From a virus: DNA of 36,233 nt. This document shows, piece by piece, positions 10,369 through 12,009 of the stretch. The notes under the pieces are model-generated. The model was not told where the DNA came from. It was given only the letters and a program-made list of their open reading frames with translations, and did no database searches. The DNA is taken from positions 1-36,233 of the IMG/VR virus record IMGVR_UViG_3300047547_000053. One strand, 5' to 3'. The first letter of the stretch is position 1. Each line of letters opens with the position of its first letter. The position numbers were made by a program, and so were the translations under genes.

Positions 10369-10505
10369 ACTACTGCCACGACTGCACCCATTACAAGCCA
10401 CTAACCTACACTAGACCACGCTGTCCAAACCCTGACGGCATCGTATGGGCAAAAGTGGCTAATAACTGTACATTTTTTATTGCAAAGATTGTTAAAAAAG
10501 TGTAG
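10365..10505 (+). CDS. 46-residue four-Cys protein
   Basis: ATG at 10365 overlaps the preceding stop (ATGA). The product begins MNYCHDCTHYKPLTYTRPRC, with Cys at 4, 7, 20 and 35, a plausible zinc knuckle, and ends in a basic tail (IVKKV). The promoter for the replication genes lies inside its 3' end. Confidence 0.6.
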   Translation: MNYCHDCTHYKPLTYTRPRCPNPDGIVWAKVANNCTFFIAKIVKKV

Positions 10506-10508
10506 AAT
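10480..10508 (+). promoter_or_regulatory. Strong promoter of the replication genes
   Basis: TTGCAA (10480-10485), a 17-base spacer and TAGAAT (10503-10508) match sigma70 consensus well. Transcription should start near 10515, giving a leader of about 140 bases before the replication initiator. Confidence 0.7.
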
Positions 10509-10514
10509 TACATC

Positions 10515-10654
10515 ACGACAAAAGTCGTAACGCTTTGGCGGCGTTTTTAGTAGGTCGGGTTTGTTATGTCATTGTGCTGTGTACCTACGCAGTCCGCCAA
10601 CCGCTAGAAATAGTGGACGATGACATAACAAACCTTTTTTATTGGAAGGTTTGT
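10515..10654 (+). promoter_or_regulatory. Structured bistable leader of the replication initiator
   Basis: Three parts are visible. First, hairpin ACGAC/GTCGT (10515-10528) and a weak terminator-like hairpin AACGC/GCGTT (10529-10545) with a T-run. Second, an 18-bp stem (10558-10575 with 10617-10634, one G-U pair) enclosing two hairpins, CTGTG/CGCAG (10577-10592) and CCGCTA/TAGTGG with a GAAA tetraloop (10601-10616), and followed by TTTTTT (10635-10640). Third, the 3' arm ACAAACCTTTT (10628-10638) can instead pair over 11 bp with GGAAGGTTTGT (10644-10654), burying the ribosome site GGAAGG. The last two are mutually exclusive. This is the architecture of an RNA switch or antisense-regulated leader. 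The trigger is unknown, and no known riboswitch class is recognised. Confidence 0.6.
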
Positions 10655-11374
10655 ATGCATTATTACAAACGGAATCTTGGCGATTACGCCAAAAAAGCTG
10701 GTAAGCTGACAATGCTACAGCACGGTTCGTACACGTTATTGATTGATGCGTGTTATGACCGTGAACAATTCCCCACGTTAGAGCAGGCGATTGAGTGGAC
10801 ATGGGCGACGACTGAGGATGAAATAAATGCCGTTAAATTTGTACTAGATAGATTTTTTAGACTTGATAAAGACAATCAATACGTACAGCCTAGAATCCTT
10901 GAAGAGTTGCTTGATTACCATAAAAAAGCAGATAAGAACAAGGAAATAGCCATTGAGCGAGAAGCAAAGCGTAAACAATACAGCACGAACCGTGCACAAG
11001 TTGTAAACGAATCGTCACCTAACCATAAACCAATAACCAATAACCATAAACCAATAACCATAGTATCTAAAGATACTAAAGCGCTTACGCGCCCAGAGTT
11101 TGTATCCGAGGATGTTTGGATTGATTTTGAAAAACTCCGCAAAGCAAAAAAAGCACCTTTGACAAAAACAGCTTTAAACGGAATACAGCACGAGGCTGAC
11201 AAGGCAGAAATAACCTTAGAGGCTGCATTGGTGATGGCTTGTAATCGCGGATGGACAAGTTTTAAGGCTGATTGGATAAAAGAATCACATGGTCGCCAAT
11301 CGGTAAACAAGCAAACAGCACTAGAAGCCCGTAACCGCCAAGCAGTCGAAGAAGCAATGAGGATGTCGCAATGA
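10655..11374 (+). CDS. DUF1376-type replication initiator
   Basis: Start ATG 10655 follows GGAAGG at normal spacing; the open frame upstream (from 10535) is the structured leader. The 239-residue protein begins MHYYKRNLGDYAKKAGKLTM, the DUF1376 signature of phage O-like/YdaU replication proteins, with a winged-helix-like N-terminal domain. A low-complexity linker encoding NHKPITNNHKPIT follows near residue 125, then a C-terminal domain with TRPEFVSEDVWIDFEKLR and GWTSFKADWIKE. Its role would be to bind the origin and recruit the host replisome, helped by the DUF6475 protein downstream (4-base overlap). Repeats inside the gene look like origin iterons. Confidence 0.85.
   Translation: MHYYKRNLGDYAKKAGKLTMLQHGSYTLLIDACYDREQFPTLEQAIEWTWATTEDEINAVKFVLDRFFRLDKDNQYVQPRILEELLDYHKKADKNKEIAIEREAKRKQYSTNRAQVVNESSPNHKPITNNHKPITIVSKDTKALTRPEFVSEDVWIDFEKLRKAKKAPLTKTALNGIQHEADKAEITLEAALVMACNRGWTSFKADWIKESHGRQSVNKQTALEARNRQAVEEAMRMSQ
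11021..11078. repeat. Iteron-like repeats and dyad, candidate replication origin
   Basis: AACCATAAACCAATAACC occurs exactly at 11021-11038 and 11042-11059, a 21-base period, with a partial copy AACCATA at 11056-11062. A perfect dyad TAGTATC-TAAA-GATACTA follows at 11061-11078. The block is AT-rich and sits inside the replication initiator gene, as iterons do in lambda O. Origin function is inferred. Confidence 0.55.
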
Positions 11375-12009
11375 ACAGCAATGAAAAGCAAGATTTTTAT
11401 AAACTTGTTAGCTCCGTCATGGACTATTACAAGCAAGATGTGTCGCCATTTTCACTTAATCTTTTTTGGGAAGCGCTCAAAGGTTTTGAGTTTGAACAAG
11501 TCAGCGCTGCACTAACAAAACACGCCATGAACCCTGACAATGGGCAATTTGCGCCAAAGATAGCCGATATTGTCAAACAATTATCTGGAACAACAACCGA
11601 TAAAGCAAAAATCGCATGGGGCAAGGTTTATGCAGCTACGGAACAAATCGGGGCGTATCAAGATGTTTGCTTTGATGATGGAATCATTCACCTAGTGATC
11701 GAAGATATGGGAGGATGGGTAAAAATATGCCGAACGGAACAAAAAGACCTAGGATACGTACAGCATCAGTTTTGCGAGGCGTATAGAGCCTATACAGGGC
11801 GTGGAAACGTCAATTATCCTAGCTACCTAGCTGGCGTAAACGGAACGGGCGAAAATATCGCGCAATTAGCACGTCGAGGAATCAAACCGCCTGAGCCGAT
11901 ATTGATAGGAGACCGTGATAAAGCTGCAAACGTCAGATTGAACGGAACAAACGAATCCCGAATCTTGGGCGCAAAGCCCGTCTATCAATTACTTGAAAGT
12001 TTAAAATGA
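11371..12009 (+). CDS. DUF6475 protein, candidate helicase loader or initiator partner
   Basis: The 212-residue protein matches the DUF6475 pattern as I know it: N-terminal YYKQDVSPFSLNLFWEAL, a helix with HAMNPDNGQFAPKIADIV, GTTTDKAKIAWGKV, and VIEDMGGWVKICRTEQKDLGY followed by FCEAYRAYTGRG. It always accompanies DUF1376-type initiators in the phages I recall, in the place of lambda P, so a role in loading the host helicase is likely but unproven. No Walker motifs, so it is not a DnaC-type ATPase. Confidence 0.8.
   Translation: MNSNEKQDFYKLVSSVMDYYKQDVSPFSLNLFWEALKGFEFEQVSAALTKHAMNPDNGQFAPKIADIVKQLSGTTTDKAKIAWGKVYAATEQIGAYQDVCFDDGIIHLVIEDMGGWVKICRTEQKDLGYVQHQFCEAYRAYTGRGNVNYPSYLAGVNGTGENIAQLARRGIKPPEPILIGDRDKAANVRLNGTNESRILGAKPVYQLLESLK

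Follow-up and report, generated by a model that had tools for sequence, protein, structure and literature searches.

The leader in front of the first replication gene of a 36.2-kb virus record (IMGVR_UViG_3300047547_000053, analysed over its full 36,233 nucleotides and called the window below) is, as judged from sequence and covariation, a member of a new and widespread RNA family without an Rfam entry, which we name class A. With moderate confidence, we interpret this leader as a conserved RNA switch that contains pseudoknots and acts in cis from the 5' end of the phage replication (early) operon. The switch probably acts by exchange of pairing partners at the ribosome-binding site (RBS), and translation would be the controlled step. 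About 140 class A relatives were found, which come from viral contigs, from prophages and from genomes of Burkholderiaceae.

Folded as one RNA, a check proposed in the first-pass annotation, the 146 nt from 10515 to 10660 reach -56.7 kcal/mol as compared to -35.6 +/- 3.8 kcal/mol for dinucleotide shuffles (z -5.5, 0/200) and are thus far more stable than expected. The individual elements are listed in Table 1. The promoter, announced as strong, is present and at 9/12 is good instead of strong. The 18-bp stem (10558-10575 with 10617-10634; P2) exists with 94% complementarity, and the two hairpins inside it (10577-10592 and 10601-10616, the latter with a GAAA loop) as well as the six T behind it lie where they had been described. 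A hairpin with a T-run at 10529-10548 had been regarded as an extra element. The hairpin is there but it is not extra: it is helix H1, the loop of which pairs with 10595-10600. This loop pairing (PK1) and a second pseudoknot (PK2) had both been overlooked. The alternative pairing of the P2 3' arm with the ribosome site, given as 11 bp, comprises nine perfect base pairs (10628-10636 with 10646-10654) and reaches 11 bp only with two additional G-U pairs; GGAAGG lies at 10644-10649 and the ATG at 10655-10657. Ahead of H1 the window carries a further 5' hairpin at 10515-10528, ACGACAAAAGTCGT, which is absent from the relatives. The reading frame of the replication gene is open upstream across the entire leader from a TTG at 10535 (10535-10654), probably by chance.

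Table 1. Elements of the leader and the first genes of the operon in the window.
Feature	Position	Strand	Remarks
Promoter, sigma-70-like	10480..10508	+	TTGCAA-17-TAGAAT
5'-terminal hairpin	10515..10528	+	ACGAC-AAAA-GTCGT; predicted fold; outside the family model
Whole family match, model R1	10526..10639	+	63.7 bits, E 2.7e-15; window outside the training set
H1 hairpin	10529..10545	+	10529-10533 with 10541-10545, loop TTTGGCG; 4/5 pairs covary
PK1, 5' side	10535..10540	+	TTGGCG; partner CGCCAA at 10595-10600
PK2, 5' side	10550..10555	+	GTAGGT; partner ACCTAC at 10583-10588
P2, 5' arm	10558..10575	+	GGTTTGTTATGTCATTGT; double changes in 17/18 pairs of family P2
P3 hairpin	10577..10592	+	10577-10580 with 10589-10592; family covariation analysis
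PK2, 3' side	10583..10588	+	ACCTAC, in the P3 loop; pairing by family covariation
PK1, 3' side	10595..10600	+	CGCCAA, P3/P4 junction; pairing by family covariation
P4 hairpin	10601..10616	+	10601-10606 with 10611-10616; GAAA loop
P2, 3' arm	10617..10634	+	ACGATGACATAACAAACC; pairs with 10558-10575
P5, 5' side	10628..10636	+	ACAAACCTT; final part of the P2 3' arm; may pair with 10646-10654 instead
U-run, terminator-like	10635..10640	+	directly 3' of P2
Ribosome-binding region	10644..10654	+	GGAAGGTTTGT; P5 3' side is 10646-10654
DUF1376/primosomal-like replication gene	10655..11374	+	PF07120 E 1.3e-17; PHROG 6451 E 1e-31; first after the leader
DUF6475 gene, helicase-loader-like	11371..12009	+	next after the DUF1376 gene

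The family was delineated from 80 relatives of the DUF1376 gene of the window, the leaders of which were compared side by side. Some of them resemble the leader of the window: a hairpin bearing a TTGGCG loop is followed by a long stem and a CTGG..CCAG hairpin, after which come the junction TCCGCCAAC, another hairpin of small size, a U-run and the ATG. A scan of IMG/VR for TTGGCGG..CAGTCCGCCAA returned at least 120 stretches, a few of them by chance. An alignment of 41 class A RNAs from which the window was left out (A2) gave rise to the covariance model R1, by which class A is defined. In this alignment 96.5% of the cells are paired and 31 pairs show double changes; the covariation score is 0.516, as compared to 0.166 in shuffled and at most 0.096 in slid controls. 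R1 was built without the window and yet matches it at 63.7 bits, which argues that the window is a genuine class A member, though a divergent one as typical members score about 100 bits. All six class A helices (H1, PK1, PK2, P2, P3 and P4) are present in it. The model matches the leaders of 13 of the 80 relatives of the gene.

Over 61 distinct rows, 95.6% of the cells in the six helices are paired and 36 of the 43 pairs exhibit double changes, with a covariation score of 0.522 versus 0.164 in shuffled and at most 0.09 in slid controls, the latter being about 40% paired. Covariation among relatives, named beforehand for both alternative stems as a test of the switch, is evident in P2. PK2 covaries in all pairs, 7/7 in the 41 rows of A2 and 5/5 in the 61 rows. 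PK1 showed no variation in A2, the search pattern having imposed it, and a second test used patterns in which PK1 was free. These yielded the compensated variants TTGACGG/CCGTCAA, TTGGAGG/CCTCCAA and TTGGTGG/CCACCAA with one exception (L372), and over the 61 rows PK1 is 99.7% paired with double changes in 4/6 pairs. In the divergent member L079, PK1 reads TGGGGA/TCCCCA and P3 is altered on both sides; in the members L435 and L436, P3 reads CCGG/CCGG. Since class A members were gathered by motif patterns, P3 and the U-run look more conserved than they really are.

A plain DNA similarity search with the leader in phage records returned chance matches only, because the stems covary, and pattern and model searches were needed. 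Most pattern matches in genome contigs were themselves due to chance; the real ones are L253 and L303, found by pattern, and L435 and L436, found by the model. The cultured DUF1376 phages AbP2, FGH and X14 gave no class A match, and a weak match in MR13 (18.9 bits) without P3, P4 and U-run was dismissed. In Rfam 15 scans of the window and about 20 relatives, with E values admitted up to 2 in the case of the leader and up to 5 in that of some relatives, no family matched class A.

The position of class A within phage genomes is uniform at both ends. Hexamers resembling a -10 element peak 10-13 nt upstream of the H1 loop throughout the family, from which the class A RNA is taken to begin at the transcription start site (TSS). 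Forward promoters are found at 44% of class A leaders versus 6% in shuffles. At the other end, the ATG follows 7-14 nt past the U-run in 125/142 cases. The window has both the 5' promoter and the start codon just past the 3' end. Each of 24/24 long records contains exactly one class A leader. The genes that follow belong to unrelated replication families and are mostly initiators, namely DUF1376 primosomal proteins, DnaD-like loaders, O-like initiators, primase and ParB-like proteins; the remainder are small unknown proteins and HNH or GIY-YIG endonucleases. Thus the leader had correctly been placed before a DUF1376 replication gene in this phage, but the family is not tied to that gene and serves the replication or early operon whatever its first gene. 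Small unknown proteins of 60-85 aa with a shared ...LT..Q... motif are often the first ones after the leader (L113, L201, L188, L145, L189 and L143). A tyrosine integrase was found in 3/25 records and not in the window. L303 is a class A leader in the cultured Polynucleobacter sp. UK-Kesae-W10, with an HTH repressor on one side and a replication gene/loader pair on the other, and the leaders L435 and L436 derive from two GC-rich genomes that belong to the family of the Polynucleobacter host. In the public annotation of MW202462.1 (L428; 817-1059 and 1027-1728), an antisense ORF covers the class A RNA and the replication gene that begins 7 nt past this RNA is omitted.

Concerning the mechanism, the lower part of P2 would compete with both P5, the helix between the end of the P2 3' arm and the ribosome site, and PK2. 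With lower P2 zipped the ribosome site would be free, so that the closed stem would represent the ON state. With lower P2 open, in the PK2 state, its 3' strand would fall onto the ribosome site, and the first replication gene would not be translated. In addition, part of the transcripts probably end at the U-run behind P2, which would yield a short RNA next to a readthrough mRNA, an arrangement known from phage IsrK.

Several comparisons bear on this exchange. The end of the P2 3' arm together with the U-run is complementary to its own RBS region, with a group duplex energy of -6.46 versus -4.14 +/- 0.44 kcal/mol (0/5000 group permutations), and the own P5 partner beats the average of the others in 10 of 11 groups. 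P5 is predicted to cover at least half of the Shine-Dalgarno G residues in 84/92 leaders. Removal of the P2 5' arm lowers the predicted mean openness of the RBS from 0.64 to 0.47, with a decrease in 115/127 cases. By nearest-neighbour estimates lower P2 (-11.1 kcal/mol) and PK2 plus P5 (-12.7 kcal/mol) are near balance; in the window the same estimates give -12.8 for P5 alone and -25.1 for the full P2. P5 is weak in some members (-3.0 in the TGGG group), and the gene behind L303 begins at a distance of 78 nt. In most members PK2 adjoins the base of P2 without a linker while the P3 loop lies at the opposite end of the 18-bp stem, a geometry from which PK2 and a fully closed P2 would exclude each other; in the window a 2-nt linker between PK2 and P2 relaxes this conflict. 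Of the two-fold switch first proposed for this leader, a structured leader beginning at the TSS and a P2 3' arm with two competing partners, one of them the RBS, have thus been retained, and the complementarity holds at the level of the family.

The RBS-exchange model contains a tension, in that the state with P2 closed would terminate transcription and yet free the RBS, so that control of transcription and control of translation would work against one another. The U-run present in most members fits termination of transcription at least as well as it fits the switch. Class A could be a transcription attenuator in which P2 and the U-run form an intrinsic terminator, PK2 (with PK1) acts as antiterminator and the complementarity to the RBS is secondary. 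Five to nine T follow the base of P2 directly in nearly all members, and P2 is strongly conserved by covariation. A stable stem followed by a U-run is found in the window (P2, T6), but this arrangement is not universal: the GC-rich L435 and L436 are without U-run and nevertheless retain a P5-like GGTCT/AGACC complement ahead of the ATG. Loss of the U-run with retention of this complement speaks for translation, more than for termination, as the function that has been conserved, even though the predicted local minimum-energy folds of these two fragments depart from the exact 5-bp GGTCT/AGACC helix. Furthermore, P5 is maintained beyond chance, the conservation of the U-run is inflated since it served to recognise members, and a consensus terminator scan did not flag P2 of the window, the stem being too long for the scan rule. 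Attenuation is a possible but rather unlikely account.

An RNA with two functions, as described for IsrK of the Gifsy-1 prophage of Salmonella, would explain the coexistence of a terminator and RBS pairing. IsrK has its own promoter, a structured RNA and a terminator, and the short RNA acts in trans; in the readthrough mRNA one of two alternative folds conceals the first RBS, and the states are near-isoenergetic (PMC4825925). Applied to class A, a short terminated RNA would open the RBS of an inactive readthrough mRNA in trans, and leader dosage would set expression. The two systems are alike in the layout of promoter and terminator, in an alternately hidden RBS and in nearly equal energies of the alternative states. 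They differ in that no double pseudoknot has been described for IsrK and that IsrK pairs with sequence inside the ORF and controls the antirepressor/antiterminator path (PMC4825925). The Rfam scans revealed no sequence relation, the IsrK family matching none of the class A RNAs scanned. In its mode of action, IsrK is the closest precedent, class A not being a member of its family, and a full IsrK-type action in trans we consider to be a little less probable than attenuation.

A trans-acting sRNA gene merely located ahead of the operon would likewise have a 5' promoter and a terminator-like 3' end, and the neighbouring class int-alpA is filed as sRNA by Rfam; the always tight spacing to the start codon across unrelated genes and the complementarity to the local RBS make this very improbable. 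Hardly more credible, and if anything less so, is a put-like RNA that modifies RNA polymerase leaving the promoter (processive antitermination): it would suit a single copy per genome at the very point where transcription of the early operon starts, but P5 and the end at the RBS would be unexplained and no known put family matched in Rfam. Antisense copy control of the initiator mRNA as in plasmids, the logic invoked by the first-pass annotation, would agree with loops suited to kissing and with a place before replication initiators, but it fails almost completely, as reverse-strand promoters are depleted at class A leaders (5.7% versus 17.7% in shuffles) and none is present in the window.

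The RepZ leader of IncI/IncB-type plasmids combines a pseudoknot with RBS access to control a replication initiator and needs an antisense RNA. Class A shares the pseudoknot, the RBS and the initiator with RepZ and differs from it by this depletion of antisense promoters. In preQ1-I/II and SAM-II riboswitches, pairing of the Shine-Dalgarno region depends on a pseudoknot in the 5' UTR. Class A, in contrast, has few conserved unpaired bases and hence no obvious ligand pocket, and it precedes replication initiators instead of genes of metabolism; no riboswitch family matched in the Rfam 15 scans at the E limits given above. HDV-like ribozymes are built as a nested pseudoknot P1/P2/P3/P4 with a J4/2 strand that bears the catalytic C. 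The helix order of class A is the same, with PK1 in the place of P1, but a ribozyme was rejected: the P4 3' arm abuts the P2 3' arm in the alignments and leaves no J4/2, and no HDV family matched in Rfam. PK2 also differs from the P1.1 of these ribozymes. Int-alpA (RF02996) is, like class A, an RNA of phages and mobile elements, and a variant of it (class B) sits before DUF1376 and ends at the RBS. Its sequence and helix order are different, and membership was rejected as RF02996 gave no match in the window or in the class A records L089 and L099.

Class B leaders occupy about 25 of the 80 loci of the DUF1376 gene and are mostly sub-threshold int-alpA matches (22-32 bits). An internal segment of class B has two pairing partners, a proximal copy (0/5000 permutations) and a copy at the ribosome site (2/5000), as exemplified by L064, in which AGACCC meets GGGTCT twice. 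Two different RNA folds before one gene thus have the same two-partner design, and this suggests that int-alpA-like RNAs act as 5'-UTR switches and not as sRNAs. In L041, L044, L064, L077 and others, class B lies about 100 nt upstream of DUF1376. The L014 phage harbours two int-alpA-type RNAs (G034:C1:23208 and 24459), one of them above the Rfam cut-off at 41.2 bits, and the phages of L058/L116 and L079 possess both class A and class B leaders. A third type, class C (L039:3784-3925, L075:626-766, L456, L497 and L437), consists of a UACCAG hairpin and a downstream hairpin with complementary CUGGUA, which may kiss, followed by a U-run, GG and ATG.

Class A is common in freshwater and Burkholderiales phages and places two covarying pseudoknots where phage DNA replication is decided upon. 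Its association with many unrelated initiator families suggests that replication is controlled in a modular manner, by RNA leaders that can be swapped, and int-alpA-like RNAs, so far filed as sRNA, may be re-read as probable 5'-UTR switches. The prophage of the cultured Polynucleobacter sp. UK-Kesae-W10 makes class A amenable to experiments. More speculatively, and in our estimation rather improbably, the terminated leader could accumulate with phage DNA copies and open or close the RBS of whatever initiator the phage encodes through loop-loop contacts and exchange of the P2 arm, which would constitute an RNA-only sensor of gene dosage or timing. If so, the unrelated RNA folds of classes A, B and C would have converged on the logic of RBS exchange before phage replication genes.
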